This document shows, in pieces, positions 242 through 25,672 of a stretch of 25,672 bases of DNA. The notes beneath the pieces are model-generated. The model was not told the DNA's origin and did no database searches. It was given only the letters and a program-made list of their open reading frames with translations. Within the stretch, counting starts at the first letter, position 1. Every line of letters begins with the position of its first letter. This DNA is from a virus, in the IMG/VR virus record IMGVR_UViG_3300009154_000245, positions 1 through 25,672 of that record. One strand, 5' to 3'. Made by a program: the position numbers and the translations under genes.

Positions 242-269
242 ATTATGAAGGAATATAGCCTTTAGTCAA
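242..269 (-). promoter_or_regulatory. Early sigma70-like promoter
   Basis: TTGACT-N16-CATAAT, then ATTGGT and ATGATG. The 6-nt gap to the ATG implies a leaderless transcript for the left-edge gene. Confidence 0.8.
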
Positions 270-459
270 GATTTTTTATTTTACAATACTTTACGTTAAC
301 GCCTGTAGCTTCTTTAACCGCTTGATGGGAGCGATAGTTCAAATTACCAAACCCTACTTGACATTGATAATCATCAAGATCTGCAACTAGTTCAGAGGGA
401 AGCTTTTTACGCTTATCATAAGCTTCGTATTCAATATCATAAATTAAAACTGTTTTCAT
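262..459 (-). CDS. Hypothetical protein (65 aa)
   Basis: Last gene of a three-gene minus-strand late unit. Its ATG overlaps the upstream stop as TAATG, implying translational coupling. The start MKTVLIYDIEYEAYDKRKK is hydrophilic. No signal peptide, membrane segment or known motif is visible. Its 3' end covers the -35 of the promoter of the next gene. Confidence 0.7.
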   Translation of the reverse strand: MKTVLIYDIEYEAYDKRKKLPSELVADLDDYQCQVGFGNLNYRSHQAVKEATGVNVKYCKIKNLD

Positions 460-785
460 TAATCAAGCTTCCCGTAATATTGCTCAAGCCGTCTTCCATC
501 AACATTTTCAATACTGTATTCAGATGTATAAACAATAGCTTCAGGAGTTTTATTAATAAACTCAACTATATTTTTAACTTCTTTATTTGTAAGTTCTGTT
601 GTACCAACAGTGTTATCTATATGAGGAAAAGGACAGGTAAAAGCTCTATTAGAATTTGTACATACTTTAATATAGAATGTTATATCTTTATCCTCTATAC
701 TTAAGTTGTTATTAAATTGCTTAGGGCTATATACGGTAAACTCCTCAAAGGAATATACTTCCCCAATTGTTCTTTTTTTATACAT
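459..785 (-). CDS. Hypothetical protein (108 aa)
   Basis: Middle gene of the 982-to-262 unit. It follows the upstream gene by 2 nt and ends in a TAATG overlap with the next gene. Soluble, mixed-charge protein (MYKKRTIGEVYSFEEF...). I recognise no family. Expression is probably from the late promoter at 988-993. Confidence 0.75.
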   Translation of the reverse strand: MYKKRTIGEVYSFEEFTVYSPKQFNNNLSIEDKDITFYIKVCTNSNRAFTCPFPHIDNTVGTTELTNKEVKNIVEFINKTPEAIVYTSEYSIENVDGRRLEQYYGKLD

Positions 786-787
786 TA

Positions 788-982
788 TTATAATTCTTTA
801 TTATTAGTAAGAAATACTTGCTTAGGATTAGCACCAAACTTACCAGCTAAATCAACATCACCTCTAAAAGATTCTACTTGATCTATATTAACCATCCTGC
901 CTCCAGTAAGAACTTGTACTGATTGACTAAGCTGCTCTGGGGTAAGCATATTAATAATATCACGTAATCTTGCAAATGTCAT
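788..982 (-). CDS. Hypothetical protein (64 aa)
   Basis: First gene of a late minus-strand unit. The start MTFARLRDIINMLTPEQLSQ is fixed by TAAATA-N5-ATG directly upstream. The N-terminal half looks helical and the rest is polar. A short protein of this style (LTPEQLxQxVxVLTGG) is familiar from phages, but I cannot give a function. Confidence 0.75.
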   Translation of the reverse strand: MTFARLRDIINMLTPEQLSQSVQVLTGGRMVNIDQVESFRGDVDLAGKFGANPKQVFLTNNKEL

Positions 983-987
983 AAAAT

Positions 988-993
988 TATTTA
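988..993 (-). promoter_or_regulatory. Late promoter (T4-like)
   Basis: TAAATA-ATTTT-ATG in front of the gene starting at 982. The 5-nt spacing implies a leaderless mRNA. Confidence 0.75.
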
Positions 994-1260
994 TTAATCT
1001 ACTTCTACAAGATCGTAATCTTTAAGAATAACGGCTCTAGTAAAGGGGTGCTTAAGGAAAGCTTTTGCATCAGTAAGCTTCTCGAATGCAAATTGCTGAT
1101 CGCGCTTACCAGTACTCAAGTCAGTTCCTCCTCCAACATTGCGACCGTTAAACTTTTCCATACACAATGTTTCTAATTGTACCTCTGAATCAGTATACTT
1201 GTGTTGAGCTTTCATATATACCAACAGACTATACTCTTTGTTCGTTTGTTTTTTCATCAT
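994..1260 (-). CDS. Conserved-type phage hypothetical protein (88 aa)
   Basis: Starts MMKKQTNKEYSLLVYMK at tandem ATG codons 6 nt after an early -10 box. The central GGGTDLSTGKRDQQFAF segment followed by a helix resembles a short phage family of unknown function with a GGGT...RD..F.F pattern; this is from memory only. Single-gene early unit, followed directly by a late promoter for the next gene. Confidence 0.75.
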   Translation of the reverse strand: MMKKQTNKEYSLLVYMKAQHKYTDSEVQLETLCMEKFNGRNVGGGTDLSTGKRDQQFAFEKLTDAKAFLKHPFTRAVILKDYDLVEVD

Positions 1261-1266
1261 GCCAAT

Positions 1267-1294
1267 ATTATGGCTGAATTTCGGAATAGGTCAA
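1267..1294 (-). promoter_or_regulatory. Early sigma70-like promoter
   Basis: TTGACC-N16-CATAAT, then ATTGGC and ATGATG. Nearly identical from -10 into the gene to the promoter at 242-269, including the doubled ATG. Confidence 0.85.
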
Positions 1295-1807: not shown

Positions 1808-1813
1808 TAAATA
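1808..1813 (+). promoter_or_regulatory. Late promoter (T4-like)
   Basis: TAAATA-TTTTT-ATG ahead of the plus-strand gene at 1819. Confidence 0.75.
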
Positions 1814-1818
1814 TTTTT

Positions 1819-2206: not shown

Positions 2207-2212
2207 TATTTA
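2207..2212 (-). promoter_or_regulatory. Possible late promoter
   Basis: TAAATA 11 nt upstream of the ATG at 2195; the spacing departs from the usual 5 nt. Confidence 0.4.
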
Positions 2213-3294: not shown

Positions 3295-3323
3295 ATTATA
3301 GGCTCCTTTTTAACATACATCAA
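3295..3323 (-). promoter_or_regulatory. Early sigma70-like promoter
   Basis: TTGATG-N17-TATAAT-N6-ATG. An AAGGAG occurs inside the spacer, upstream of the -10, so it would not be in the mRNA if transcription starts at the ATG. Confidence 0.85.
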
Positions 3324-4293: not shown

Positions 4294-4321
4294 ATTATGG
4301 TTGAATTATAAAATTAAGCAA
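4294..4321 (-). promoter_or_regulatory. Early sigma70-like promoter
   Basis: TTGCTT-N16-CATAAT-N6-ATG. The -35 overlaps the last codons of the nuclease gene. The spacer ends TTCAACC, close to the TTCAGCC found at 1267 and 18444. Confidence 0.8.
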
Positions 4322-5478: not shown

Positions 5479-5507
5479 AGTATACTCGACACTTAAAATA
5501 TAGTCAA
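5479..5507 (-). promoter_or_regulatory. Early sigma70-like promoter
   Basis: TTGACT-N17-TATACT-N7-ATG in front of the nuclease gene. Confidence 0.8.
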
Positions 5508-5526: not shown

Positions 5527-6018
5527 TTATTTATATACAATCATTAATGCAGTTGATGTTCCTAACTCTACATTACTGTTAGAATCAATAGAAATATATT
5601 CATCAAATTCATGTACTGTTTTATTAACTACTACAGTACCATCAACAGGAATTACGTAGCAATTACTGAGTAATCTTGATTCTCTTATTATTTCTGCTCT
5701 ATACTCTCTTGCAACATCTACCGGGCTGAATGCTACCCACTTAACGCCGGAGGGAATTAAAAATTTGCGCGTTGTTGTAAACAAGCTCTTAACGTTATAA
5801 AAACCTCCTTTTTCAAATATTGTGCCTGTGGTTTCCTCTACCCCTCCGCCGTCAATAATAAATAAGTAGTGAGAGTTCCATCTAGGCTCAATTTTATATG
5901 TATTTGAGAATTCTGGCCCTTTTTCAATTCCTCTGCATACTGTAAATTCAGTAAAATGAAAAAGCTTATCCTGTTTTGCTTTCTCTTCCTCTAATGTATA
6001 CTTGCTCTCAATATTCAT
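5527..6018 (-). CDS. Hypothetical protein (163 aa), possibly cupin-like
   Basis: Start MNIESKYTLEEEKAKQ at 6018, chosen because TAAATA-N5-ATG precedes it exactly; a start at 6048 would overlap the collar gene. The body is strand-rich, with glycine turns (IIDGGGVEETTG, FEKGGFYNVKS, LIPSGVKWVAFSP) suggesting a cupin or jelly-roll. Late class and next to tail genes, so it may be a virion or assembly protein; this is unproven. Confidence 0.65.
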   Translation of the reverse strand: MNIESKYTLEEEKAKQDKLFHFTEFTVCRGIEKGPEFSNTYKIEPRWNSHYLFIIDGGGVEETTGTIFEKGGFYNVKSLFTTTRKFLIPSGVKWVAFSPVDVAREYRAEIIRESRLLSNCYVIPVDGTVVVNKTVHEFDEYISIDSNSNVELGTSTALMIVYK

Positions 6019-6023: not shown

Positions 6024-6029
6024 TATTTA
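6024..6029 (-). promoter_or_regulatory. Late promoter (T4-like)
   Basis: TAAATA-TATAC-ATG, overlapping the end of the upstream collar gene. Confidence 0.75.
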
Positions 6030-6575
6030 CACTTTCATTATGTAGCACAAAGCATAATAAGGTGGAAGGTTAGCATTAGTACCTGATTGGCCTTCAGCTG
6101 CTACAGTAATATTAGCGGCCCCAATTTGACCATTGCCTTTGATAGCATTAGTAGTTGATGAAAACAAGCTTGTATCAAGAATGCCAAATAATGCTGTTCC
6201 TTTTCCTCGCGAGCTACTAACGCCTAATATAGCATGCACGTGGCCGGAGTCAGATGCTGTATGTGAATGACTTACTACTATTGCATCCTTTAATCCACCT
6301 GTTGTTCCTACTGCTGGTGTTGTTACTCCTGCTCCTACTACAAATCTATCAACAAGATTAGGAGTGCTATTTGTACCATCACAGAGAACCCACCCGGAGG
6401 GAATGGCGTTTGCAGCGCCTGACCATAATATAATACCCCCAGAAGGTACATTTGAAGCAAGTGAAACGACTTGGGTAACAGATGCACTATATGTAGTACC
6501 CCCTTCGGAGTAAGGAACTAATGCAGCTCCTGCAGGCTGTCTTTGAGTCAATTGAGATATTGCTACATCTGCCAT
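6027..6575 (-). CDS. Phage tail-collar domain fibre protein
   Basis: 182 aa. Residues 1-40 are the MADV module (MADVAISQLTQ...VPYSEGGTTYSA) shared with three other genes here, probably a docking domain. The collar domain follows (IPSGWVLCDGTNSTPNLVDRF, similar to T4 gp12 and Mdp proteins), then a HSHTASDSGHVHA stretch of His-x-His pairs that in gp12-like fibres bind metal along the trimer axis, and the typical ending NLPPYYALCYIMKV. Likely a short receptor-binding fibre. Late promoter with 5-nt spacing. Confidence 0.9.
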   Translation of the reverse strand: MADVAISQLTQRQPAGAALVPYSEGGTTYSASVTQVVSLASNVPSGGIILWSGAANAIPSGWVLCDGTNSTPNLVDRFVVGAGVTTPAVGTTGGLKDAIVVSHSHTASDSGHVHAILGVSSSRGKGTALFGILDTSLFSSTTNAIKGNGQIGAANITVAAEGQSGTNANLPPYYALCYIMKV

Positions 6576-6580
6576 TTAAA

Positions 6581-6586
6581 TATTTA
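6581..6586 (-). promoter_or_regulatory. Late promoter (T4-like)
   Basis: TAAATA-TTTAA-ATG, immediately downstream of the terminator of the structured RNA. Confidence 0.8.
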
Positions 6587-6588
6587 TT

Positions 6589-6619
6589 AAAAAAAGAGCG
6601 TATATATTGCTATATACGC
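6589..6619 (-). terminator. Rho-independent terminator of the structured RNA
   Basis: Perfect 9-bp stem GCGTATATA/TATATACGC with a 4-nt loop, followed on the minus strand by TC and seven T. Confidence 0.85.
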
Positions 6620-6990
6620 CCTAATCTCGCGTCACGGTTTACGCAAAAGAAACTAGCAATCTGCCAAGTCAATTACATCGTATTCGAATTTAAATGGCTA
6701 TAACTATCTAGCCTAGTTAAATGTAATCAGCCTACGTACTGTGCTATGTTGTTACATCATAGCGAAGCTTTAAGACTTGTAATATTAGCCAGGGATGTTT
6801 ACACTGTATGATTTTCGATTTAGCAGGCTTACTTCTTATTAATTTCACTTAATAGTTGCTACTATCATACTCCCGTTCATTTACAAGTATATCTACTTGT
6901 ATTCGCCTGTGGGTCTCGGCGTTGGACTATTCAAGATTTACCTTCGAGGTCCCAACCTCTACTTCTTACAGATTTGCTATCAAAGAACTT
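6589..6990 (-). ncRNA. Candidate structured non-coding RNA, about 400 nt
   Basis: The interval between two collar genes (6576-7118) holds no convincing ORF. On the minus strand it has a sigma70-like promoter, a terminator, and many inverted repeats that can form a multi-stem RNA: 6946-6959, 6904-6921, 6883-6900 (7-bp perfect stem), 6852-6865, 6743-6763, 6696-6713, and a longer-range 7-bp pairing of 6672-6678 with 6721-6727. The collar genes on both sides are complete, so it is not an intron. It does not match what I remember of tmRNA, RNase P or group I introns. Large ornate phage RNAs such as GOLLD or ROOL are the nearest concept, but I cannot show homology. Confidence 0.7.
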
Positions 6991-6996
6991 ATAATG

Positions 6997-7024
6997 ATTA
7001 TATGTACTTTTCTAGAGGAAGCAA
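6997..7024 (-). promoter_or_regulatory. Sigma70-like promoter of the structured RNA
   Basis: TTGCTT-N16-TATAAT, predicted start near 6990. No ORF follows it, unlike the other early promoters here. Confidence 0.75.
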
Positions 7025-7118
7025 CTAGCTTTTTTAAATTTTTATAAAATTAGCTATAAACCCAATAGAACAAACACCTAACAAACCTAAAGCTGTTACT
7101 AAAATCATGTAATAGTTA

Positions 7119-7661
7119 TTACAGCTTCATTATATATGCAAGGGCATAAAAAGGCGGTAAGTTCTGATTGGTGCCTGATGAGCCTTCTGAATTGATAGTA
7201 ATTCCTGTTTGATTTTGTGTAGTTCCAATTGGATTTGGGTCATAATTTTTTCCAAGAATGACCAGGTTGCTTCCGCCGCCTACATTCCTGCCATAACTTG
7301 GAGATACAAGGTGAGAATGACCAGGATCTGTTATTCCGTGACTATGGCTAACTACAATAGCATCTTTTGAACCCCCCGTTTGGGTGTTCGATCCCGTAAT
7401 ATTGGTATTAGCTATACCTGCGTTGTCAACATTAGCTCCAACAATAAATCTATTTCTTAAATCAGGTGTATTGTTTGTACCATCACACAATGCCCAGCCT
7501 GTTGGTATTGTGGCTAATGAACCATACCACATAGATATGAGCCCTTTAGGTAGAATGTTGCTCAACGCAGCATTATATGTTGTCCCGCCTTCTGAATAGG
7601 GAAATACAGCCGAGCTATTAGGCTGTCTATTAGTTAATTCAGATATGGTTACGTCGGCCAT
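7119..7661 (-). CDS. Phage tail-collar domain fibre protein
   Basis: 180 aa paralogue of the collar protein at 6027. The MADV module (MADVTISELTNRQPN...) is followed by ISMWYGSLATIPTGWALCDG, an RFIVGA segment, a HSHGITDPGHSH metal-binding-type stretch and the ending NLPPFYALAYIMKL. The two proteins agree in ends and core but differ in the segments between, as expected for fibre variants. Late box TAAATA 6 nt upstream. Confidence 0.9.
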   Translation of the reverse strand: MADVTISELTNRQPNSSAVFPYSEGGTTYNAALSNILPKGLISMWYGSLATIPTGWALCDGTNNTPDLRNRFIVGANVDNAGIANTNITGSNTQTGGSKDAIVVSHSHGITDPGHSHLVSPSYGRNVGGGSNLVILGKNYDPNPIGTTQNQTGITINSEGSSGTNQNLPPFYALAYIMKL

Positions 7662-7667: not shown

Positions 7668-7673
7668 TATTTA
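7668..7673 (-). promoter_or_regulatory. Late promoter (T4-like)
   Basis: TAAATA-TTAGAT-ATG (6-nt gap). Confidence 0.65.
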
Positions 7674-7682: not shown

Positions 7683-7898
7683 TTATTTCTTTTTCTTCTT
7701 AGTCTTTTTTTTCTTTTTCTTCTTAGGAGCAGCTTCTACCTCATTGAGATAATCAAAGTTAGGTAGATCCTTCTTAAGGACATCATACTTAACGTATTCT
7801 GCTAATGTAAGGGCCTTGTCCTTAACTGTAAAAGCTAAGTCTTCTACCTTCCACTTAACAGCTTCAACTGCATCTAATACTTTGTCGAATAGGCTCAT
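7683..7898 (-). CDS. Small helical protein with poly-lysine C-terminus (71 aa)
   Basis: Start MSLFDKVLDAVEAVKWKVED at 7898, fixed by TAAATA-N5-ATG. The first 45 residues are an amphipathic helix pattern. The last 13 residues are lysine with one threonine, encoded by mixed AAA/AAG codons. The basic tail suggests DNA, RNA or membrane binding; late expression makes packaging or virion DNA contact conceivable. Confidence 0.75.
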   Translation of the reverse strand: MSLFDKVLDAVEAVKWKVEDLAFTVKDKALTLAEYVKYDVLKKDLPNFDYLNEVEAAPKKKKKKKTKKKKK

Positions 7899-7903: not shown

Positions 7904-7909
7904 TATTTA
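7904..7909 (-). promoter_or_regulatory. Late promoter (T4-like)
   Basis: TAAATA-CTATT-ATG. Confidence 0.75.
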
Positions 7910-8131: not shown

Positions 8132-8137
8132 GATTTA
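8132..8137 (-). promoter_or_regulatory. Late promoter variant
   Basis: TAAATC-ATTGT-ATG, divergent with the box at 8163. Confidence 0.6.
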
Positions 8138-8162: not shown

Positions 8163-8168
8163 TAAATA
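8163..8168 (+). promoter_or_regulatory. Late promoter (T4-like)
   Basis: TAAATA-CTGGT-ATG ahead of the gene at 8174. Confidence 0.7.
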
Positions 8169-8173: not shown

Positions 8174-8458
8174 ATGTTCAACGCAATTAAAAACCATTTT
8201 AGTAAAGCTTATAATGTTGCGTTCTGGATACTATTTGCTCCGGGAATGATTGTAACACTATCCGGTGTTTACGAATTATATACAAAATATTTTGATGAGC
8301 TGACTAAACAAGATCACATGCAATTTTTTTTAAGATTCTTTTTTCCTATTTCTCTTGCGCTATATATAACAGTATTAGAACGTAGACAGAGATTACAAAA
8401 AGATGATCTTATTAAAAGAGGAAAAGATTATTTAAGACGAAAGCGATCGGCTAAATAG
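8174..8458 (+). CDS. Two-pass membrane protein (94 aa)
   Basis: Start MFNAIKNHFSKAYNVAFWIL at 8174, fixed by the late box 5 nt upstream; an earlier ATG at 8147 lies upstream of the promoter. Two hydrophobic segments (AFWILFAPGMIVTLSGVY and FFLRFFFPISLALYITVL) and a strongly basic C-terminus (RGKDYLRRKRSAK). Membrane topology resembles holin or accessory lysis proteins, but I cannot assign one. Confidence 0.7.
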   Translation: MFNAIKNHFSKAYNVAFWILFAPGMIVTLSGVYELYTKYFDELTKQDHMQFFLRFFFPISLALYITVLERRQRLQKDDLIKRGKDYLRRKRSAK

Positions 8459-10435: not shown

Positions 10436-10464
10436 ATTATACACCCGTCCAGCGATAGCTCCAA
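10436..10464 (-). promoter_or_regulatory. Early sigma70-like promoter
   Basis: TTGGAG-N17-TATAAT-N6-ATG. It lies inside the last codons of the 10437-11117 gene. Confidence 0.75.
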
Positions 10465-11122: not shown

Positions 11123-11128
11123 TATTTA
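11123..11128 (-). promoter_or_regulatory. Late promoter (T4-like)
   Basis: TAAATA-AGCGC-ATG, overlapping the stop of the lipoprotein gene. Confidence 0.75.
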
Positions 11129-11332: not shown

Positions 11333-11360
11333 AATATAAAGGAAATAAGAATTATAGCAA
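11333..11360 (-). promoter_or_regulatory. Early sigma70-like promoter
   Basis: TTGCTA-N16-TATATT-N6-ATG in front of the lipoprotein gene. Confidence 0.7.
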
Positions 11361-11925: not shown

Positions 11926-11931
11926 TATTTA
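11926..11931 (-). promoter_or_regulatory. Late promoter (T4-like)
   Basis: TAAATA-TTTAA-ATG. Confidence 0.8.
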
Positions 11932-13192: not shown

Positions 13193-13197
13193 ACAAT

Positions 13198-13203
13198 AAT
13201 TTA
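13198..13203 (-). promoter_or_regulatory. Late promoter variant for the bilin operon
   Basis: TAAATT-ATTGT-ATG ahead of the heme oxygenase gene. Confidence 0.6.
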
Positions 13204-14896: not shown

Positions 14897-14901
14897 GTAA
14901 G

Positions 14902-14907
14902 TATTTA
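14902..14907 (-). promoter_or_regulatory. Late promoter (T4-like)
   Basis: TAAATA-CTTAC-ATG ahead of the PEP-CTERM gene. Confidence 0.8.
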
Positions 14908-15334: not shown

Positions 15335-15341
15335 TCCTAAT

Positions 15342-15372: not shown

Positions 15373-15373
15373 T

Positions 15374-15379
15374 TAAATA
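15374..15379 (+). promoter_or_regulatory. Late promoter (T4-like)
   Basis: TAAATA-TTTCT-ATG ahead of the gene at 15385, abutting the hairpin. Confidence 0.75.
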
Positions 15380-15384
15380 TTTCT

Positions 15385-15543: not shown

Positions 15544-15551
15544 TTTTTATA

Positions 15552-15579
15552 TTGCCAGTTTTCTAAATTCCGTTACAAT
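15552..15579 (+). promoter_or_regulatory. Early sigma70-like promoter
   Basis: TTGCCA-N16-TACAAT, 9 nt before the ATG of the signal peptidase gene. Confidence 0.65.
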
Positions 15580-15588
15580 AACGGTATA

Positions 15589-16110: not shown

Positions 16111-16719
16111 TTAAGCTTTGTTCTGTAACTTATCAGCAGCCATTGTCAAGATCTTAATAGTATCTGCTTTAGAATATTTCTTGGGGTGGTTGATTAATTT
16201 ATCAACTAAATCAAGAGCTTCATGATTAACATTGTAATGTGAGTTAAGAGCGGCTTGTTCTTCTGATTCTTCTTTAGCAGAAATTGCAGCTTTAATAGCA
16301 GAATCACGACGAGCGAGATACTCTTCTTCGGTCTCTTCTGACTTAGGCTTGACAACCATCTCCATGTTATCTTCATCCTTGGCTTCTTTTTTCTCTTTAA
16401 CAACTGATTCTTTAACACGTTTTGTTGTAAATACAGGGCCTCCTAAAGCACCTGATTCATCTTTATAGCCTGGTGGCTTTGTTGTTGGTGTAGTAGCATC
16501 AAATTTTGTTTTTGCCCATTCAATCACACCAGCAAATTCTTCAGGTGAAAGAGCAAATTTGGTAGCGAGATTGGCATCACTCTTAAGCATGTCGAGTATT
16601 TCAACCAACCGCTTTGAATTGGCTTGCTCTAAACTAGCATCTGAGTATGTACCTTCGTTAATTACTTTAAAGCGCTTGTTAACATAACTTTCGAACATCT
16701 TAATATCATCAAGGGTCAT
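16111..16719 (-). CDS. Acidic, helix-rich hypothetical protein (202 aa)
   Basis: MTLDDIKMFESYVNKRFKVI..., helical N-terminal domain (LALSPEEF-like region), a Pro/Gly linker (TTPTTKPPGYKDESGALGGP), then a highly charged KE-rich coil (about 105-160) and a helical end. Such layout suits a scaffold or internal structural protein, but no family is recognised. Late box 5 nt upstream, divergent from the gene at 16787. Confidence 0.75.
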   Translation of the reverse strand: MTLDDIKMFESYVNKRFKVINEGTYSDASLEQANSKRLVEILDMLKSDANLATKFALSPEEFAGVIEWAKTKFDATTPTTKPPGYKDESGALGGPVFTTKRVKESVVKEKKEAKDEDNMEMVVKPKSEETEEEYLARRDSAIKAAISAKEESEEQAALNSHYNVNHEALDLVDKLINHPKKYSKADTIKILTMAADKLQNKA

Positions 16720-16724: not shown

Positions 16725-16730
16725 TATTTA
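16725..16730 (-). promoter_or_regulatory. Late promoter (T4-like)
   Basis: TAAATA-TTAGT-ATG. Confidence 0.75.
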
Positions 16731-16775: not shown

Positions 16776-16781
16776 TAAATA
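16776..16781 (+). promoter_or_regulatory. Late promoter (T4-like)
   Basis: TAAATA-ATTAT-ATG, divergent from the box at 16725. Confidence 0.8.
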
Positions 16782-16786: not shown

Positions 16787-17092
16787 ATGAGAAATATTAA
16801 TTTAAAAGTTACAAAAGCCAATATAAAGAATGGTGAACAGGTTAATCCAGGAAAATGCCCTATAGCAAACTCAATTATGGAACAGGTAAAGAATGTTTAT
16901 TATGTTAGAGTGTTACCTGAAGAAGCTGCAATCAAAATCAAACATGGCAATAAAATTACTACCTATAAGAGCGATCTTCCTAAAGTAGCTAATAACTTTA
17001 TTAGAATGTTTGATGACGGTGCAAAAGTTAAACCATTCTCTCTTAATTTGAGCTTTAAAAAAATAAACAGAAAAATAGCTGACTTAATATAA
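16787..17092 (+). CDS. Conserved-type phage hypothetical protein (101 aa)
   Basis: Layout I..GEQVNPGKCPIANSI, a strand-rich middle, and NNFIRMFDDGAKVKPFSLNL resemble a common small phage family (I..G....P..CPva.Al ... fi..fD.g..v.PF.F) of unknown function; from memory. Late box with exact 5-nt spacing. A 9-bp AT-only inverted repeat (17088-17107) overlaps its stop. Confidence 0.75.
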   Translation: MRNINLKVTKANIKNGEQVNPGKCPIANSIMEQVKNVYYVRVLPEEAAIKIKHGNKITTYKSDLPKVANNFIRMFDDGAKVKPFSLNLSFKKINRKIADLI

Positions 17093-17118: not shown

Positions 17119-17124
17119 TAAATA
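17119..17124 (+). promoter_or_regulatory. Late promoter (T4-like)
   Basis: TAAATA-ATTAC-ATG. Confidence 0.8.
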
Positions 17125-17129: not shown

Positions 17130-17795
17130 ATGGCTAATTATCAAACTGTACTATTACAGCCCACATTTCAGCTTTATACACATAATTCTAGTGCAGCAAG
17201 CGCATTTGTAAATTACCCAGGTATAACAAGAGTAAGTAGTGTTAACCCTTCTAACCCTGCTAGCGTACGTTCTTGGACACCGGATTTACCTGTTGACTTT
17301 CAACTAACTTGGTTAACTTCCTTTACGCCTGGCTCTTCTTATCAAGTAGTACTCTCTGCTAATGCTAGTGTTGCACAAGAAGGTTCATATCCAGGCATTA
17401 CAATAAGACCGATTGTTGGCCCGTTTGCGTTTTTATCTATGCCTGCAAATTCATTGCCTATTAATATTTTAACTGCTACTGTTACTAATTCTGCTGGTAC
17501 AGTGCCGCTGTCGTCTGTACTCGGATTTGCTTGGACAGTTGTAATCGATAATACAAGTGTTGCATATCCCGCGTTCAATTCTTGGAAGCGTTATGATCAA
17601 TCACTCATTGGATCCTTTAACGAAACAAATACATTAACATATCTTTATCCTAATTCTTCCTATTATATTGCTCTCGGTAATTCAAGTAGCTTCACAATCA
17701 ATATACCTCGTCGTAATAATTACCTTATTACCAACGATGCAAGGTTCATTACCACAAATAATGGTAACTACATTATAGTAAGTTCAAATCCTTAG
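17130..17795 (+). CDS. Probable virion/fibre protein (221 aa)
   Basis: Ser/Thr/Asn-rich, strand-dominated protein (MANYQTVLLQPTFQLYTHNS...). Its last 40 residues have repeating NYLITND/NYIIVSSNP-type short strands. Composition and late promoter fit a structural or fibre role. No signal peptide. No specific family recognised. Its stop overlaps that of the convergent gene at 17792. Confidence 0.7.
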   Translation: MANYQTVLLQPTFQLYTHNSSAASAFVNYPGITRVSSVNPSNPASVRSWTPDLPVDFQLTWLTSFTPGSSYQVVLSANASVAQEGSYPGITIRPIVGPFAFLSMPANSLPINILTATVTNSAGTVPLSSVLGFAWTVVIDNTSVAYPAFNSWKRYDQSLIGSFNETNTLTYLYPNSSYYIALGNSSSFTINIPRRNNYLITNDARFITTNNGNYIIVSSNP

Positions 17796-18729: not shown

Positions 18730-18735
18730 TATTTA
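18730..18735 (-). promoter_or_regulatory. Late promoter (T4-like)
   Basis: TAAATA-AAATA-ATG, overlapping the end of the fibre gene at 18733. Confidence 0.7.
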
Positions 18736-19452
18736 TGCCCAGGTAACAATAACTACACCTGCGGAACCAGCAGATGAGCTTCCTCCTCGGCATCCTTCTG
18801 TATAAAAATAATTACCTCCCCCGCCTCCAACAGTAATAGAGATTACATCTCCTACAGTTGCTTCAACCGTACCGTAAGCATAACCCCCGCCTCCTCCTCC
18901 ACTATTACATACCCAACCCCCCCTTTGATTACCTCCGCCAATACAGGTTGGAGCACAAGATTGCCCGGTTCTTCCACAAGGAGTTGCATTACCTCCAGTA
19001 CCATATCCTAAAAATCCTGCTCCTCCGTTGCAACAATATTGCCCAGTTCCGCCAGTAGAATTTTGAATATTTCCTCCCGCACCTGAACCTCCAGAGCAGG
19101 TACCACATCCTCCACCTATGCCTCCTGTAGCATACATGTAGTTTCCAAAATATGAGGTTCCACCACCCCCGGAACGGGTACTTGAACTACCTCCGTTATC
19201 TGTTCTCCCGCCTCCACCGCCACCTACAACCTGCACCGTAAGAGTAATGGTTGGTGTAAAGAATTGTGTCCATATACCATTTTTATTGATCCACCCTGTC
19301 TTTACTGTTTTCCATGTCCCGCCATCATTTATAGAAATATTTTTTACTGTTTGCCATGTACCTCCATTGTTTACAGATATACTAGATGAACCTGATCCAG
19401 ATCCTGAAGGTACTGTAAAACTACCACTTGATGTGAATGTCTGACTTGGCAT
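18733..19452 (-). CDS. Glycine-rich fibre-tip protein, cysteine-containing
   Basis: 239 aa. Starts with a short Gly/Ser lead, then two copies of the NGGTWxTVKxISINDGGTWK module ending WINKNGIWTQFF (about 25-65). The C-terminal part is a glycine-rich domain (VQVVGGGGGGRTDNGG... to AGVVIVTWA), like the polyglycine-helix tips of T-even gp38 adhesins and the common VLVVGGGGGG phage domain. It contains about nine Cys, unusual for this class. Probably receptor binding. Confidence 0.85.
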   Translation of the reverse strand: MPSQTFTSSGSFTVPSGSGSGSSSISVNNGGTWQTVKNISINDGGTWKTVKTGWINKNGIWTQFFTPTITLTVQVVGGGGGGRTDNGGSSSTRSGGGGTSYFGNYMYATGGIGGGCGTCSGGSGAGGNIQNSTGGTGQYCCNGGAGFLGYGTGGNATPCGRTGQSCAPTCIGGGNQRGGWVCNSGGGGGGYAYGTVEATVGDVISITVGGGGGNYFYTEGCRGGSSSAGSAGVVIVTWA

Positions 19453-19457
19453 AATAA

Positions 19458-19463
19458 TATTTA
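19458..19463 (-). promoter_or_regulatory. Late promoter (T4-like)
   Basis: TAAATA-TTATT-ATG. Confidence 0.75.
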
Positions 19464-20363
19464 GTTAACGGGCCCTACTAAAGCGTTCCCTGTTAAAGTA
19501 TATGCTTTACCGTTACTCACCAAAGCATATCCCGGTGATTGTGTAGAGGTATATATCTTAGTGCGATACGCGCAGTTATAATAATTTGACCATCCTTGAG
19601 TAGATGGCTGTCCAAGAGCTCCTCCGTTCCCCGCTGTAGCGTAAGCTGCATCTCGGTTTGCTGATGAGGAGCCTCCTAACCCTCCTGCAAGCTCTGTACC
19701 GTTTGAACCAAAAAACCCTCTAAATGAACCAGATCCTTTGCATGTACCCTCTCCACCGGCTACACCTGCATTAATACCTGCACCGCCTCCGCCGCGGGCA
19801 GGTTGAACATTGGATACTGCATATGGAAAAGCCACAGTTGTTCCCCCGCCTCCCCCGCCGCCAATCGTACCATTATTAATAATTGCTAATGCATAGTCTA
19901 ATGAAATAGCGTTTCCTCCATTTGTACCGGCTGTAGAGCTGGTATACCCACCGGATGAGCCAAAGCAGGTACAGGGTGAACTGGTACCACCCGATGTTGT
20001 TCCCCCATCACCTCCTTTACCTGCAATTATAGCATTATTGGTGAGGGTGATGGAACTGCCGGCAGGCCATGTGCCTGTAACTAAAGATGCAGTTCCGGTA
20101 GAAGTACTTCCTACATTACCTGTTACAACAAAACTAACATCAACAGGAGTTGATGAATAATCTCCAGTTTGTGTTTCATATAATGATCTCAAGTTAATAT
20201 TATTACCACCTGTTATAGTAATAGTAGTATCAGAAGCATAAAACTTAGTCCATACACCTGCTTTGTTGATCCAGCCGGACTTTACCGCCTTCCATACACC
20301 ATCATAAACACTGAGTTTTTTTACTGTTTTCCAGGTACCGTTATCATTAACTGAAAATGCCAT
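19461..20363 (-). CDS. Glycine-rich fibre-tip protein, MAFSV module
   Basis: 300 aa. MAFSV module (MAFSVNDNGTWKTVKKLSVY ... WINKAGVWTKFY, residues 1-44), then a strand domain (ITITGGNNINLRSLY...TGNVGSTSTG) also present in the gene at 21605, then a glycine-rich tip (AIINNGTIGGGGGGG...) like those at the C-terminus of phage host-specificity proteins. Ends LTGNALVGPVN. Variant late box TAAGTA 5 nt upstream. Confidence 0.85.
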   Translation of the reverse strand: MAFSVNDNGTWKTVKKLSVYDGVWKAVKSGWINKAGVWTKFYASDTTITITGGNNINLRSLYETQTGDYSSTPVDVSFVVTGNVGSTSTGTASLVTGTWPAGSSITLTNNAIIAGKGGDGGTTSGGTSSPCTCFGSSGGYTSSTAGTNGGNAISLDYALAIINNGTIGGGGGGGTTVAFPYAVSNVQPARGGGGAGINAGVAGGEGTCKGSGSFRGFFGSNGTELAGGLGGSSSANRDAAYATAGNGGALGQPSTQGWSNYYNCAYRTKIYTSTQSPGYALVSNGKAYTLTGNALVGPVN

Positions 20364-20368
20364 ATGTA

Positions 20369-20374
20369 TACTTA
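20369..20374 (-). promoter_or_regulatory. Late promoter variant
   Basis: TAAGTA-TACAT-ATG. Confidence 0.5.
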
Positions 20375-21328
20375 ATTAAATGTTATTGTGCCTGATGATG
20401 TAAAACTATATACTTTGTCTGTTCCAACTGTAGTAACAGTTACCCCTCCGGTAGTTATAGGTATAGGCGCTGTAGATAATGCACGAACTATTACAACACC
20501 ACTTCCTCCGTTTCCTCCATTGCCGCCTGATCCACCGCCCCCTCCTCCACCACTATTAGCTGTACCTCCGGACCCGCTACCCGAAGACCCGTCACCCGGA
20601 CTAGCTCCATTACCACCACCGCCTACTCCTCCACCACCGCCGTTTCGACCTTCACCTTTTCCACCCCCTCCCCCTCCTGCATAAGCTACAGAAACACCAG
20701 AAATAGATGAAGAAGCACCTGCTCCACCACTACCGCCAGTAACGTTATCACTTGATCCTCCTACTGCTGCAGCGCCGCCGCCCCCTCCACCTGGACGTGC
20801 CCCTCCTCCACCATTATATCCTTGTACGGGTGAAGTAGCAGGCGTATTACCTGCCCCACCAGCCGTTAGCCCTTGGCCCCCTCCTCCACCTGAACCACCT
20901 ATTCCTCCTGCAGTACTAACTTTTCCCCCACCTCCTCCTCCTGTACTAGTATAACTAAAAGCTGAAGAGTCTCCTCCATTTGAACCGGATGAACTTGAGC
21001 TACCACCGATACCACCTGCACCACCATTTCCTACAGTTATTGTATAAGTTGTACCTAAATTTAATTGTATTTGTGAGATGTACCTAAAACCACCTGCTCC
21101 TCCTCCGCCTCCTCCTGCATAGGCCCCAAGCCTAGCAGCTGCTCCTCCACCTCCTCCACCTCCTCCACCAACTATTAATACATCAACTAAAGGATCGGCT
21201 GCATAAAACTTAGTCCATACACCTGCTTTGTTGATCCAACCTGATTTTACAGCTTTCCATGCACCATCATAAACACTAAGCTTTTTTACTGTCTTCCAAG
21301 TACCATTATCATTTACGGAAAATGCCAT
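20372..21328 (-). CDS. Glycine-rich fibre-tip protein, MAFSV module
   Basis: 318 aa. The same first 44 residues as the gene at 19461, nearly identical also in DNA, but the rest is a different glycine-rich domain: VLIVGGGGGGGGGAAARLGA..., long runs of G with A/S/N, closing with GSGVVIVRALS and a small strand domain (VTVTTVGTDKVYSFTSSGTI). Only a poor late-like box precedes it (AATGAAAATG), so it may be read from upstream. Confidence 0.85.
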   Translation of the reverse strand: MAFSVNDNGTWKTVKKLSVYDGAWKAVKSGWINKAGVWTKFYAADPLVDVLIVGGGGGGGGGAAARLGAYAGGGGGGAGGFRYISQIQLNLGTTYTITVGNGGAGGIGGSSSSSGSNGGDSSAFSYTSTGGGGGGKVSTAGGIGGSGGGGGQGLTAGGAGNTPATSPVQGYNGGGGARPGGGGGGAAAVGGSSDNVTGGSGGAGASSSISGVSVAYAGGGGGGKGEGRNGGGGGVGGGGNGASPGDGSSGSGSGGTANSGGGGGGGSGGNGGNGGSGVVIVRALSTAPIPITTGGVTVTTVGTDKVYSFTSSGTITFN

Positions 21329-21340
21329 AAAGCATTTTCA

Positions 21341-21571
21341 TTAAACCTGGTACCATATATCACCGCTAGAACCACCCGTAGGTGTACTTGTAGAAATTGT
21401 TCTAGCACCTGCAGCGTTTGTTCCAATAGAAGGCTTTCCAGTTACTGAATTCCATGCTACAGGAAGATTAGTAATAGTTGATTTGTATGTGGTTGTACCA
21501 TCGGAATAAGGAACAACACCGGTACCCACGGGTGTACCTGCATCTAGATCTGAAATTGCTACGTCGGCCAT
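21341..21571 (-). CDS. Short MADV-module fibre protein (76 aa)
   Basis: MADV module (MADVAISDLDAGTPVGTGVV ... TTTYKSTITN) followed almost directly by WNSVTGKPSIGTNAAGARTI and the ending GGSSGDIWYQV, a closing motif commonly seen in phage fibre proteins. Minimal version of the modular fibres; it may be a small subunit or a remnant after loss of the central domain. Confidence 0.75.
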   Translation of the reverse strand: MADVAISDLDAGTPVGTGVVPYSDGTTTYKSTITNLPVAWNSVTGKPSIGTNAAGARTISTSTPTGGSSGDIWYQV

Positions 21572-21578
21572 ATAATAA

Positions 21579-21584
21579 TATTTA
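21579..21584 (-). promoter_or_regulatory. Late promoter (T4-like)
   Basis: TAAATA-N7-ATG. Confidence 0.6.
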
Positions 21585-21604
21585 TTCTTTTAATAATATT
21601 TTTT

Positions 21605-22369
21605 TTAACTTATACTACCGTATGTCGTACCTTGTGGAGACCAAGTAACGGTTTTATTATTTAGAACAACGGCGTTACCACCTGCGCCTTGTGAGCATAC
21701 ATATCCGAAAGCACCTGGACCTCCATTTCCACCTCGGGGAGAACCAGCACTCCCTAAAGCACCGCCTGTACCACCAATACCATCCACACAATCCCAAGGC
21801 CAAGCACAATATTTCCAGTACCCCCCAGCTGTTGCATTATATAGTTGACCATTTACCAAGCCAGCACCAGTACCACCCCGAGCATCTCCTCTGCCGCCTG
21901 ATGCACCGATTGAACCTCCCCCTCCTCCGCCACCAGCAATTATACCATTATTGATAATCAAAACATTATTACTCAAAGAAATCGCGGCTCCTCCCGCTGT
22001 ACAAGCACCCCCACCTGCTCCTGCAACATACACGCCCGCTGCAATGTTAATAACTATTTCACTTCCAGTAGACCATGTACCAGTAACGAGTGACGGTATA
22101 CCTGAGCTTGTACTACCTATATTACCATTTATATTAAAAATAACCGATACAGCATCGCTAGAACTGTCTCCTGTTTGATTGGTATAAAGTGTTCGTAGAT
22201 TGATGTTGTTTTGCGATGTTACATTTACTGTAGTTGTACCGCTATAAAATTTAGTCCAAATACCATTCTTGTTAATCCATCCCGATTTTACTGCTTTCCA
22301 TGTACCATCATTAACACTAAGCTTTTTTACTGTTTTCCATGTACCATTGTCATTAACTGAAAATGCCAT
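21605..22369 (-). CDS. Glycine-rich fibre-tip protein, MAFSV module
   Basis: 254 aa; start MAFSVNDNGTWKTVKKLSVN at 22369, where a late box lies 5 nt upstream (the frame extends 15 codons further into the tRNA region). MAFSV module 1-44, the NNINLRTLYTNQTGD strand domain shared with the gene at 19461, then a glycine-rich tip with Trp/Cys segments (GGYWKYCAWPWDCVDGIGG). Probable receptor-binding variant. Confidence 0.85.
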   Translation of the reverse strand: MAFSVNDNGTWKTVKKLSVNDGTWKAVKSGWINKNGIWTKFYSGTTTVNVTSQNNINLRTLYTNQTGDSSSDAVSVIFNINGNIGSTSSGIPSLVTGTWSTGSEIVINIAAGVYVAGAGGGACTAGGAAISLSNNVLIINNGIIAGGGGGGGSIGASGGRGDARGGTGAGLVNGQLYNATAGGYWKYCAWPWDCVDGIGGTGGALGSAGSPRGGNGGPGAFGYVCSQGAGGNAVVLNNKTVTWSPQGTTYGSIS

Positions 22370-22374: not shown

Positions 22375-22380
22375 TATTTA
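22375..22380 (-). promoter_or_regulatory. Late promoter (T4-like)
   Basis: TAAATA-TATGT-ATG, lying between the fibre array and the tRNA-Tyr gene. Confidence 0.75.
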
Positions 22381-22390
22381 TTAAAATATT

Positions 22391-22473
22391 TGGGCAGAAG
22401 TGGATTCGAACCACTGAAGGCGTAAGCCAGAAGATTTACAGTCTTCCCCGTTTGGCCACTTCGGTATCTGCCC
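22391..22473 (-). tRNA. tRNA-Tyr(GTA)
   Basis: 83 nt with 7-bp acceptor GGGCAGA/TCTGCCC, anticodon loop CTGTAAA, long variable arm as expected for Tyr, T-loop TTCGAAT, discriminator A. CCA not encoded. Confidence 0.95.
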
Positions 22474-22475
22474 AT

Positions 22476-22547
22476 CTGTTCGGGTAGGGATCGAACCTAC
22501 GACCAATGCATTAACAGTGCACCGCTCTACCGCTGAGCTACCGAACA
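22476..22547 (-). tRNA. tRNA-Asn(GTT)
   Basis: 72 nt, acceptor TGTTCGG/CCGAACA, anticodon loop CTGTTAA, T-loop TTCGATC, discriminator G as usual for Asn. CCA not encoded. Confidence 0.93.
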
Positions 22548-22552
22548 AAACT

Positions 22553-22640
22553 CGGACAGAGTAGGATTCGAACCCACGGTACCGTTTAAGGCACTTCTGA
22601 TTTCAAGTCAGATGCAATAGACCAACTCTGCCATCTGTCC
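22553..22640 (-). tRNA. tRNA-Ser(TGA)
   Basis: 88 nt, acceptor GGACAGA/TCTGTCC, anticodon loop CTTGAAA, long variable arm, discriminator G, all standard for Ser. Confidence 0.95.
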
Positions 22641-22655
22641 AACATATTATATATC

Positions 22656-22731
22656 CTGCACCTGGTTGGATTCAAACCAACGCTCTATTGATTAGAAATC
22701 AATTGCTTTATTCAACTAAGCTACAGGTGCA
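22656..22731 (-). tRNA. tRNA-Arg(TCT)
   Basis: 76 nt, acceptor TGCACCT/AGGTGCA, anticodon loop TTCTAAT-type reading AGA, T-loop TTTGAAT, discriminator G. AGA is favoured in AT-rich phage genes. Confidence 0.92.
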
Positions 22732-22741
22732 GTAAGATTGG

Positions 22742-22832
22742 TACCTCCGATAGGATTTGAACCTATATTGCGCTCACATCTAGAGCTTCACGAGTATAAA
22801 TCGTGGGTCTTAACCAGTTAGACGACGGAGGC
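22742..22832 (-). tRNA. tRNA with anticodon TAT (Ile) and long variable arm
   Basis: 91 nt. Acceptor GCCTCCG/CGGAGGT, D-stem GTCT/AGAC, anticodon stem CACGA/TCGTG with loop TTTATAC, T-stem ATAGG/CCTAT. The anticodon reads UAU (AUA codon, Ile). The variable region is 22 nt with a GCTC/GAGC stem, which is class II (Leu/Ser/Tyr) architecture and unexpected for Ile. CCA is encoded (22739-22741). Confidence 0.8.
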
Positions 22833-22864
22833 ATAAACCTCCTATCGTATTCGAATAACCCAAT

Positions 22865-22990
22865 TCACGGACATCCTGCCACATAGGGGCGGTTATGGTT
22901 ATTATAATCATCAGCTTTTGAGCCACAAACCCTACTAATAACTATAAAGATTAAAATTGCAATTGTCCAAATAATAATAGTAGGTCTCAT
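22865..22990 (-). CDS. Small membrane protein (41 aa)
   Basis: MRPTIIIWTIAILIFIVISR followed by a polar tail (VCGSKADDYNNHNRPYVAGC). One N-terminal membrane segment. Its ATG directly follows the upstream stop (TAAATG), as in other coupled pairs here. Confidence 0.6.
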   Translation of the reverse strand: MRPTIIIWTIAILIFIVISRVCGSKADDYNNHNRPYVAGCP

Positions 22991-23281
22991 TTATTTTACC
23001 TCGTTAATATCATCATCTAATAACCCCATGATATCAATGCCATGTTTATCATCGAAGTAAGTGCGAACCTGCTTTACTACAGCATCATAGTCCTTCTTAT
23101 TCCTCTTGTAACGCATATCAAGCTCAAGAAAGCGCTTGGTAACTTTATCATAAGCATCAGCATCGAATTCTTTTTGATTTAAAGTCTTGATCTCTCTAGC
23201 TATTTTCTCTGATTCTCTAACAATCCATTCATAGCTAGAATTATGAAACTCAATCTGTTCTAAAAGATAATCAACTTCCAT
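22991..23281 (-). CDS. Coiled-coil hypothetical protein (96 aa)
   Basis: MEVDYLLEQIEFHNSSYEWI..., a nearly continuous charged helix pattern (about 1-80) ending in an acidic tail (LLDDDINEVK). Early promoter with 6-nt spacing. No family recognised. It lies between the tRNA cluster and tRNA-Leu. Confidence 0.75.
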   Translation of the reverse strand: MEVDYLLEQIEFHNSSYEWIVRESEKIAREIKTLNQKEFDADAYDKVTKRFLELDMRYKRNKKDYDAVVKQVRTYFDDKHGIDIMGLLDDDINEVK

Positions 23282-23287
23282 ATTGTT

Positions 23288-23315
23288 AGTATAAAGGTAT
23301 TTTAAATTAGTGCAA
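23288..23315 (-). promoter_or_regulatory. Early sigma70-like promoter
   Basis: TTGCAC-N16-TATACT-N6-ATG. Confidence 0.75.
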
Positions 23316-23320
23316 GCACT

Positions 23321-23393
23321 TCGCCTAGGTCAGACTCGAACTGACACTTGAACGATTTTAAGTCGTTTTTCTCTGCCATTGGAATACTAGGCG
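23321..23393 (-). tRNA. tRNA-Leu(TAA) with short variable loop
   Basis: 73 nt. Acceptor CGCCTAG/CTAGGCG, anticodon stem AACGA/TCGTT with loop CTTAAAA, T-arm GTCAG-TTCGAGT-CTGAC, discriminator A. The loop is that of a UUA-reading Leu tRNA, but the variable region is only 5 nt (CAAGT) where bacterial tRNA-Leu normally has a long arm, and the D-stem is only 3 bp. Confidence 0.85.
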
Positions 23394-23401
23394 AATACAT
23401 A

Positions 23402-23554
23402 TCAAGGATATCGATAGATCTTCTTACCTTTTTTGATAATGTAGTTCCGAATCTCTTTGCCTTCTTTAGTAGCCCAATTGACTACTTCATCATAGTTATC
23501 TTTAAACTTCTTACTAAAACAATTTCTTGGCTTATCACCTTTTCCAGCGCTCAT
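23402..23554 (-). CDS. Small basic phage protein (50 aa)
   Basis: Start MSAGKGDKPRNCFSKKFKDN at 23554, fixed by an early promoter 6 nt upstream; the long upstream extension is excluded. The M(S/T).GKGD.PR....F..N(W/Y)D opening is a familiar short-protein motif in many phages, function unknown. The remainder is basic and helical. Confidence 0.75.
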   Translation of the reverse strand: MSAGKGDKPRNCFSKKFKDNYDEVVNWATKEGKEIRNYIIKKGKKIYRYP

Positions 23555-23560
23555 ACATAT

Positions 23561-23589
23561 AGAATAGACTATATCGTAAAGAAAATCAA
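23561..23589 (-). promoter_or_regulatory. Early sigma70-like promoter
   Basis: TTGATT-N17-TATTCT-N6-ATG, back-to-back with the late box at 23590 on the other strand. Confidence 0.75.
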
Positions 23590-23595
23590 TAAATA
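23590..23595 (+). promoter_or_regulatory. Late promoter (T4-like)
   Basis: TAAATA-N7-ATG ahead of the long fibre gene. Confidence 0.6.
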
Positions 23596-23602
23596 TTAAG
23601 AG

Positions 23603-25672
23603 ATGAATTATATCACTTATACAGACAATCTGACAACATTTGTATATGTTAAAGGTTATAATTTTAAATGGACACAATACGTTCTTTTAAGTACTACAAG
23701 CGATAATACTTTCTATACAGCTTCTGCTTTTAATCCTTTCTCTTCATATCCAAGGCTTTCTGCTATATTTCCGGAGTTTAACGGTTTTGTTTACACCAAC
23801 TATGAAGTTGTTGATGATAATCAGCTCAAAGTTAATTTAGCCAGTATTTCTGGAGCAGGTAAGTACGATATCATTACGTTGAATGGTGCGGGGTATGTTA
23901 AGTTATCTGATAAAGGGTATCTTGTTAATTCTATTTCTCAGGTTACCCATACCCCTACACCTACATATACACCAACGAATACGCCTACACAAACAGTTAC
24001 ACCTTCTGTAACGCCAACTTTCACCCCTACGCCTTCTAATACACCATCACAGACGCCAACTAATACACAGACACCTACCAACACGCCAACACCTTCTTTA
24101 ACAAAAACGAATACACCAACACCTACTCCAACCTCAACAACGCCATCTGCATGTCTTAACAACTGGTCACTTGTAAACTTTAGTGGAACTACATTTAGGA
24201 ATGGTGATGCAATTCCTCAGATTACAGATCAGGAAGAATGGAATACTGCTACAGGTCCAGGTTGGTGTTATTATGATAATGACCCTACAAATGGTGCTAT
24301 TTATGGCAAACTATACAATAGGTATGCTGTGACTGATGTGAGAGGATTGGCTCCAGAAGGCTACCATGTGCCATCTCTAGCAGAATGGGAAGATTTAATT
24401 ATATGCTTAGGAGGCTCAGATGCAGGGGGCGGTATATGGCCTGTTGCAGGTGCCAAGATGAAGACCACTGGCACAATTCAAGATAATGACGGATTATGGA
24501 ATTCGCCTAATGTAGCTACAAATGAAAGTGGATTTTCAGTAGTACCAGCTGGTTGCAGAACTGGAGGATTTATAAATTTACATTCAAGAGGCAGCTTCTG
24601 GGTTAATGATAGTGATACCTGTATTAATTTTAATAATGGTGCCTCATATATTTACATTGGTGGTGATAGTACAACAGTTGGTTATTCTGTACGGTTAAAA
24701 CAAGGTGAAATACCAATTCCTACACCTACAATGACACATACTGTAACACCCACTCCAACCGTTACCATAACACCTACAACACCATATGTATATAATTATA
24801 TTACTGATAATAATGAAGTTATAACTATTTCAAATCCTGAAATTGCAAATTTTATTATTGTAACGACAACTGTTGAGACATTTAGTGCCTCTCTCGACTT
24901 ACAGGTGCTAGGCTTTACTAATTATTTTGATATCGGTAATTTTTCTAACTGTAGTCTAGCTTTTAATTACGGAAGCGGACTATCAGCTAATAAACAAGAA
25001 ATTTTTGTAACTGAGAACGCTACTATTTCTAGCAATTTAGGTAACTTGTATACAATTTATTATACAAATACAGGTTCTCTCATATTAGGAATTGCTGCAA
25101 GTGGTGTATATGTACCTCCTATCACAAGTTACCCTCCGCCCTCGAATACACCAACACCTACAGTAACCCAAACACCGACGCTTACCTTAACTAATACACC
25201 TACTCCTACTCCGACAATAACACTAACACCTACAGTAACCCAAACATCAACACCAACACCTACACGTACTCCACCTAATACACCTTTACAGACATCAACA
25301 CCGACCCCAACACTATCGGCTATAGCAGTAACATCTACACCAACACGTACTCCACCTAATACACCTTTACAGACATCAACCCCAACCCCAACACTATCGG
25401 CTATAGCAGTAACATCTACACCAACACGTACTCCACCTAATACACCTTTACAGACATCAACACCGACGCCATCTATTACACCTACAACAACGCCATCTAT
25501 TACGCAAACAATAACACAAACACCAACACTATCGGCTATAGCAGTAACATCTACACCAACGCCATCTATTACACCTACAATAACGCCATCTATTACACCT
25601 ACAACAACGCCATCTATTACGCAAACAATAACACCAACAAAGTCACCAACACCGACAATATCGGCTTCTCCA
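23603..25672 (+). CDS. Long Thr/Pro-rich fibre protein with FISUMP domain, truncated by window edge
   Basis: Open for 690 codons to the right edge. Residues 1-112: strand-rich head ([20 protein letters not shown]). About 113-182: Thr/Pro linker ([19 protein letters not shown]). About 184-368: Fib_succ_major (FISUMP) domain, recognised from [39 protein letters not shown] and the later [12 protein letters not shown] and YSVRLKQGE segments. About 370-396: second Thr/Pro linker. About 397-510: another strand domain. About 511 to the edge: Thr/Pro repeats containing a perfect 27-residue tandem unit. Such Thr/Pro stalks space globular domains, so this is probably a long fibre or surface adhesin. 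A 3' end lies outside. Confidence 0.85.
25262..25504 (+). repeat. 81-bp tandem repeat, about three units
   Basis: Near-identical 81-bp units start at 25262, 25343 and 25424, each beginning ACACGTACTCCACCTAATAC. The third diverges after about half, and its second half (CACTATCGGCTATAGCAGTA) reappears near 25528. It keeps frame (27 codons) in the Thr/Pro stalk of the fibre gene. Confidence 0.9.

Follow-up and report, generated by a model that had tools for sequence, protein, structure and literature searches.

Late transcription in T4 is the textbook case of a system whose genes carry leaders with Shine-Dalgarno (SD) sites, and the question raised by the 25,672-nucleotide (nt) stretch of viral DNA analysed here (IMG/VR virus record IMGVR_UViG_3300009154_000245, positions 1 to 25,672; hereafter the window) is whether a T4-like lineage expresses its genes without them. 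In the window the T4-type late promoter box TAAATA lies again and again a few nucleotides ahead of an ATG, from which a sequence-only reading had concluded that the mRNAs of late genes begin at the start codon itself. The answer favoured here is that the property very probably extends to the phage as a whole, with leaderless mRNAs (leaders of 0-2 nt) made from late promoters of gp55 type and early ones of sigma70 type, so that a widespread uncultured clade appears to have dropped leaders from early and late genes alike.

The window is probably a fragment of a virus genome and overlaps the contigs G001 (32.5 kb) and G002 (69 kb). G004 is a close relative, with an exonuclease protein 94% identical to that of the window, and G005-G008 are more distant ones (exonuclease ~70% identical across the first 210 residues). 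In the 230-kb G007, gp23, gp20, gp17, gp18, gp21, gp43, gp46/47, uvsX and gp55 have been recognised by similarity to the cultured Pelagibacter phage HTVC008M (identities of 31% for gp23, 29% for gp20, 35% for gp17 and 31% for gp43), and the lineage is, judged from these T4-type core homologues, T4-like. At least 600 relatives of the G007 gp23 have been found among IMG/VR viral contigs; identity is 72-100% for the best 80 of them, whereas isolates reach no more than ~34%.

Spacing of the late boxes

The gap is defined here as the number of nucleotides between the end of a promoter box and the start codon. On the two strands of the window, exact TAAATA-N5-ATG occurs at 17 sites, while 200 dinucleotide shuffles of the window have given 0.98 on average and never more than 4, 14 other hexamers of the same letters average 0.93 at gap 5, and TAAATA itself is found 0, 2 and 2 times at gaps 4, 6 and 7. 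Sixteen of the exact sites lead plausible genes; the remaining one, at ATG 1568, is intragenic and opens just 15 codons. When one-base variants are admitted, the count at gap 5 rises to 34 (exact sites included) against 13.9 expected, which is only moderately over chance, so that single variant boxes are weak evidence. Owing to variation at the first two bases, the strict form TATAAATA-N5-ATG has no occurrence in the window. The earlier count of 19 starts with the box at gap 5 is borne out as 16 exact boxes and the three variants TAAATC, TAAATT and TAAGTA, all 15 ATG coordinates that had been listed (982 to 22369) are right, and the exact site at 18724 adds to that list. Four further starts had been described with gaps of 6, 7, 7 and 11 nt, of which three do lead genes; the second gap-7 site (23590 on the plus strand, ATG 23603) opens just 5 codons. 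Among the starts 8147 and 8174, G004 retains 8174 alone, and G002 and G004 agree at ~89% of the box positions as compared with ~72% farther upstream (summed over the listed positions).

Whether the spacing exceeds chance has been examined in the window, five related contigs, 79 contigs that carry gp23 (846 kb) and nine T4-like isolates, RM378 being taken in part (100 kb), by measuring the distance of TAAATA to the in-frame and out-of-frame start codons of every open reading frame, and the outcome favours the claim. In-frame starts peak exactly at gap 5 in the window (15), G002 (24) and G004 (15), with 0-1 out of frame. In the 79 contigs, gap 5 has 135 in-frame ATG starts and none out of frame, gap 6 has 60 and 6, and GTG starts also peak at gap 5 (20). 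This in-frame peak is confined to the window clade and HTVC008M among the genomes scanned: the distant relative G005 peaks at gaps 6-7, G007 is spread over gaps 4-6, the box stands ~19-30 nt upstream of the starts in T4, S-PM2, Syn9, P-SSM4 and S-CREM1, and the 100 kb of RM378 show no such box spacing. The raw T4 count of 10 sites at gap 5 has been discarded as a parallel, as just 1 is in frame at a gene start and the count equals that of other same-letter hexamers. When 1133 starts were scanned for hexamers without bias, the top five signals included TAAATA at -11..-6 (z 48) and, with z 27, TATAAT at -12..-7. Orthologues of gp4 in 27 contigs are bimodal, with a gap of 5-6 in 22 and of 28-34 in 5.

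Early promoters and the predicted start of transcription

The second of these hexamers belongs to promoters of another kind. Non-box genes of the clade are enriched for TTGA-N16-21-TANAAT (17 vs 1.3 shuffled in G007), and TTG-N16-18-TATAAT ends at gap 6 at 25 sites in G007 and 29 in the 79 contigs, as against 1-3 sites at the adjacent gaps. G002 has seven sigma70-type promoters at gap 6 and four at gap 7, and a pattern check of eight larger contigs has found 44 exact TTG-N-TATAAT-N6-ATG sites as compared with 2 in a reversed control; T4, S-PM2 and Syn9 have no sigma70-type promoters at a fixed gap near the start. In the alignment of the early sites TTGA appears near -34, and a -35 TTG precedes 61% of the gap-6 TATAAT sites but 11% of the late boxes, whose upstream profile is flat and devoid of a -35 element. 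The presence of a -35 at early sites and its absence at late ones therefore define two distinct promoter classes. About nine window genes share this layout, the exonuclease gene at gap 7 among them (Table 1 gives the coordinates of seven). Bacteroidota-type promoters (TANNTTTG), tried as the early class, have shown no enrichment. The sequence-only reading had tied the leaderless layout to late genes; it holds for these, but the restriction to them does not, since early genes share the arrangement and the property is therefore phage-wide.

The two classes follow gene function. In G007, near late boxes precede 7 of 16 late core genes (gp3, gp15, gp17, gp21, a tail-tube gene and two genes for baseplate or fibre proteins) vs 1 of the 14 early ones (P=0.03), and near sigma70-type promoters belong to gp32, gp43, gp61 and the exonuclease gene. 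A gp55 homologue with a conserved core is encoded by G007 (ORF130, E 7.7e-19); the window, being a fragment, is without it.

In sigma70-type promoters the -10 element spans -12 to -7, and +1 is therefore the seventh base after it. The T4 late box spans -13 to -6 (numbering after PMC2988020), which makes +1 the sixth base after the box. With a gap of 5 for the late class and of 6 for the early one, both would consequently have +1 on the base that opens the start codon, and each class indeed peaks at its own required gap. Leadered promoters of T4 and Melnitz have a pyrimidine excess at base 5 and a purine excess at base 6 after the box, which fits the known start point and accordingly, at gap 5, makes the A of ATG +1; a pyrimidine precedes the start codon at 88% of the gap-5 sites of G002 vs 56% of its non-box starts. 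The gap-5 peak, this fit to the start point and the match of the early class thus support the earlier claim that the mRNA starts at the start codon, and it is from them that we infer the 5' ends.

Box starts of G007 at gap 4-5 comprise 34 ATG, 19 GTG, 1 TTG and 0 CTG. Leaderless translation in mycobacteria takes place at ATG or GTG starts only (PMC4633059), and the near-absence of TTG starts at boxes is as would be expected for leaderless translation. SD complementarity, taken as duplex energy, is not above control upstream of the boxed genes of the clade and lies near background for its non-boxed genes too; it is clear in T4, Melnitz, C48C1 and the leadered genes of HTVC008M. The earlier remark that no SD sites are visible has thereby been extended to their near-absence across the clade.

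We propose that, for promoter-proximal genes, the late promoter, with its TAAATA core and without a -35, would be read by a gp55-type sigma factor, the start point 5-6 nt past the box coinciding with the A of AUG, and that early genes would reach the same outcome from host promoters of sigma70 type, in which 6 nt separate the -10 from the AUG. The 5' end of the mRNA would in both cases be the start codon, and ribosomes would read the 5'-terminal AUG or GUG without SD contact. Operon-internal genes, which have few SD sites, would probably depend on translational coupling or weak non-SD initiation.

A phage-encoded ribosomal protein bS21 (PF01165) scores above the cut-off in five of the 10 related contigs (G007:C1:39344-39463 on the minus strand, G005, G016, G017 and G018), and HTVC008M encodes S21 as well; the protein may be of relevance to initiation without SD sites or leaders. 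The more far-reaching proposal of a whole lineage with essentially leaderless expression, in which bS21 also tunes the host ribosomes toward such mRNAs, is doubtful when taken together: its lineage-wide leaderless part is strongly supported by the sequences, and the tuning role of bS21 is speculation.

Table 1. Promoter elements near start codons in the window (gap in nt).
Element	Position	Strand	Gap	ATG	Gene	Remark
TAAATA	988..993	-	5	982	788-982	conserved in G004
TAAATA	1808..1813	+	5	1819	1819-2022	conserved in G004
TAAATA	2207..2212	-	11	2195	2019-2195	conserved in G004
TAAATA	6024..6029	-	5	6018	5527-6018	
TAAATA	6581..6586	-	5	6575	6027-6575, tail-fibre-like	
TAAATA	7668..7673	-	6	7661	7119-7661, tail collar	
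TAAATA	7904..7909	-	5	7898	7683-7898	conserved in G004
TAAATA	8163..8168	+	5	8174	8174-8458	start conserved in G004
TAAATA	11123..11128	-	5	11117	10437-11117	conserved in G004
TAAATA	11926..11931	-	5	11920	11366-11920	conserved in G004
TAAATA	14902..14907	-	5	14896	14192-14896	gap kept in G004, upstream changed
TAAATA	15374..15379	+	5	15385	15385-15543	conserved in G004
TAAATA	16725..16730	-	5	16719	16111-16719, divergent from 16787-17092	conserved in G004
TAAATA	16776..16781	+	5	16787	16787-17092	conserved in G004
TAAATA	17119..17124	+	5	17130	17130-17795	conserved in G004
TAAATA	18730..18735	-	5	18724	76 amino acids	likely start inside longest reading frame
TAAATA	19458..19463	-	5	19452	18733-19452, glycine-rich, fibre-like	
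TAAATA	21579..21584	-	7	21571	21341-21571	conserved in G004
TAAATA	22375..22380	-	5	22369	21605-22369, tail fibre	
TAAATT (variant)	13198..13203	-	5	13192	haem oxygenase	weak, single variant
TAAGTA (variant)	20369..20374	-	5	20363	tail fibre	weak, single variant
TAAATC (variant)	8132..8137	-	5	8126		weak, single variant
TTGACC-N16-CATAAT	1267..1294	-	6	1260		
TTGATG-N17-TATAAT	3295..3323	-	6	3288		
TTGCTT-N16-CATAAT	4294..4321	-	6	4287		
TTGACT-N17-TATACT	5479..5507	-	7	5471	PD-(D/E)XK exonuclease	
TTGCAC-N16-TATACT	23288..23315	-	6	23281		
-10 TATAAT	10436..10441	-	6	10429		weaker; TTGGAG 17 nt upstream
-10 TATATT	11333..11338	-	6	11326		weaker; TTGCTA 16 nt upstream

Alternative explanations

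Several observations weigh against leaderless expression throughout the phage. Half or more of the genes have neither promoter class, and in G007 the genes of the major capsid protein (gp23) and the sheath (gp18) are seemingly leadered, with GGAG/GGAGG-like SD sites (AAGGAG, TTGGAGG), so that the leaderless rule is not universal. HTVC008M queries for gp33 and gp45 have given no phmmer match in G007, where these proteins are maybe too divergent, and the first two positions of the late box, TA in T4, are weak in the clade (A at 0.60/0.65). In addition, the gene calls come from a simple open-reading-frame picker.

In DNA of 36% G+C, in which TAAATA is a common word (56 copies in the window), the boxes could be thought a product of AT-richness or of gene calling; with 17 sites where about one is expected, flat counts out of frame, at neighbouring gaps and for the same-letter hexamers, and a pattern kept between relatives and recurring over hundreds of kilobases, this idea is refuted by the controls and its probability is negligible. 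The box might instead act on the mRNA, as an AU-rich stretch that attracts ribosomes in an SD-poor host while the transcripts start farther upstream. Some other start signal could indeed be expected in a clade without SD sites, and many run-internal genes are also preceded by boxes; however, the early genes carry a different motif with sigma70 geometry, a -35 at ~34 nt and a gap of their own, a -35 is unnecessary for a ribosome, and the box is the known core of T4 and cyanophage late promoters (PMC2988020, PMC2984593), where it lies far upstream. We therefore give a translational role of the box very little credence.

Nearer to a leaderless start are short but real leaders, for which transcription would begin 1-3 nt before the ATG and which would be near-leaderless in function. 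The peak of G005 at gaps 6-7 and the spread of G007 over 4-6 are in keeping with them, as are many gap-6 sites that read pyrimidine-purine-T-ATG and in which +1 could fall on the purine second before the codon; the window clade, however, peaks sharply at 5 with a pyrimidine at -1, the early class peaks exactly at 6, and the gap-4 sites of G007 are ATG and GTG in equal parts, which fits a +1 on the purine that opens the codon, so that short leaders are unlikely, if with some chance of being right. The boxes could also be genuine late promoters of minor secondary transcripts, most of the protein being made from long polycistronic mRNAs started upstream and leaderless initiation counting for little; in the 79 contigs, about two-thirds of the genes with a box in fact do not stand first in their gene run. 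Yet boxed genes have no SD for internal initiation, and box and spacing are better conserved than their flanks, which makes a minor role of these transcripts quite improbable. Transcription from the start codon itself remains the reading that we prefer.

Gene content, host and relation to known systems

The window contains tail-fibre and collar genes, the T4-like exonuclease, the haem oxygenase and other accessory genes. In the tail-fibre genes (6027-7661, 11366-11920 and 18733-22369), N-terminal modules of the forms MADVxISxLT... and MAFSVNDNGTWKTVKKLS... are repeated and followed by glycine-rich domains, and each module copy has its own late box or variant, except 20372-21328. An accessory block at 12575-15930 comprises the haem oxygenase, a prepilin-like protein, a DNRLRE-type protein with a hydrophobic C-terminus and an archaeal-type signal peptidase I. 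The minus strand further carries six tRNA genes (Tyr, Asn, Ser, Arg, Ile(tat) and Leu; 22390-23394), a putatively coding Gly/Val-rich low-complexity reading frame (23938-24162) and an adenylyltransferase related to the HldE/RfaE domain (1291-1770), which hints at a lipopolysaccharide-bearing host.

As to that host, a marine Far-T4 cluster has been tied in silico to Flavobacteriales (PMC13037479), and the early promoter type of the present lineage would argue against Bacteroidota. Prepilin homology in genome contigs has given weak matches only, to Patescibacteria, Spartobacteria and Phycisphaerales, and Spartobacteria as a leaderless host have shown neither an SD nor a leaderless peak in 89 kb of 50% G+C, which is too little data. 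In a metagenome-assembled genome of Candidatus Nealsonbacteria (Patescibacteria; L220-L229, G009), -10 elements peak 6 nt before start codons without an SD excess, and leaderless genes look common in that genome too. The leaderless reading predicts hosts whose ribosomes accept 5'-terminal AUGs well and thereby offers a clue to host prediction; box spacing can also correct the annotation of start codons, as at 18724.

Leaderless genes and T4-type late promoters are each known, and their combination in a T4-like phage is apparently new: no report of leaderless T4-like genes, in one class or both, has been found in the open-access literature, although prior notice for Syn9 is possible. The clade probably overlaps the Far-T4 group (Roux 2015, PMC4360716), which it resembles as a large uncultured aquatic T4-like group with a long gp23; the word 'promoter' is absent from that paper. 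RM378 has been considered as a cultured member of the clade and rejected, as the spacing pattern is absent in the 100 kb tested; within them gp23 has no blastp match, and few proteins are in common by blastp.

A cultured phage of a second lineage, HTVC008M, makes the leaderless reading directly testable. It has 11 in-frame gap-5 sites with little SD, and its TAAATA-N5-ATG starts include gp2, gp4, gp48, gp25, gp3, the tape-measure gene and csgF; environmental relatives retain the near box at gp4. HTVC008M resembles the clade in these late genes and differs from it in that most other genes are SD-leadered and the position of its early promoters would not give leaderless starts. Late-promoter prediction has been reported to fail in pelagimyophages (PMC7029224), for which near boxes may partly account.

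With the late promoters of T4 (gp55/gp33/gp45; PMC2988020) the clade shares the TAAATA core, the lack of a -35, an AT-rich spacer, gp55 (as the homologue in G007) and the association with late genes. T4, however, has boxes ~20-30 nt from the starts, followed by SD leaders (SD 4-mers in 87% of such genes), whereas in the clade the box abuts the ATG and the SD is absent. The box is also that of the cyanophage late promoters NATAAATA (S-PM2, Syn9; PMC2984593), which it resembles at the first two positions, but the cyanophages S-PM2, Syn9, P-SSM4 and S-CREM1 have boxes that peak 19-28 nt upstream. Transcription from the start codon, predicted in the clade, the use of ATG and GTG and the lack of SD sites are in turn features of mycobacterial leaderless genes (PMC4633059), from which the clade differs in being a T4-like phage with two promoter classes, one of them specified by the phage.

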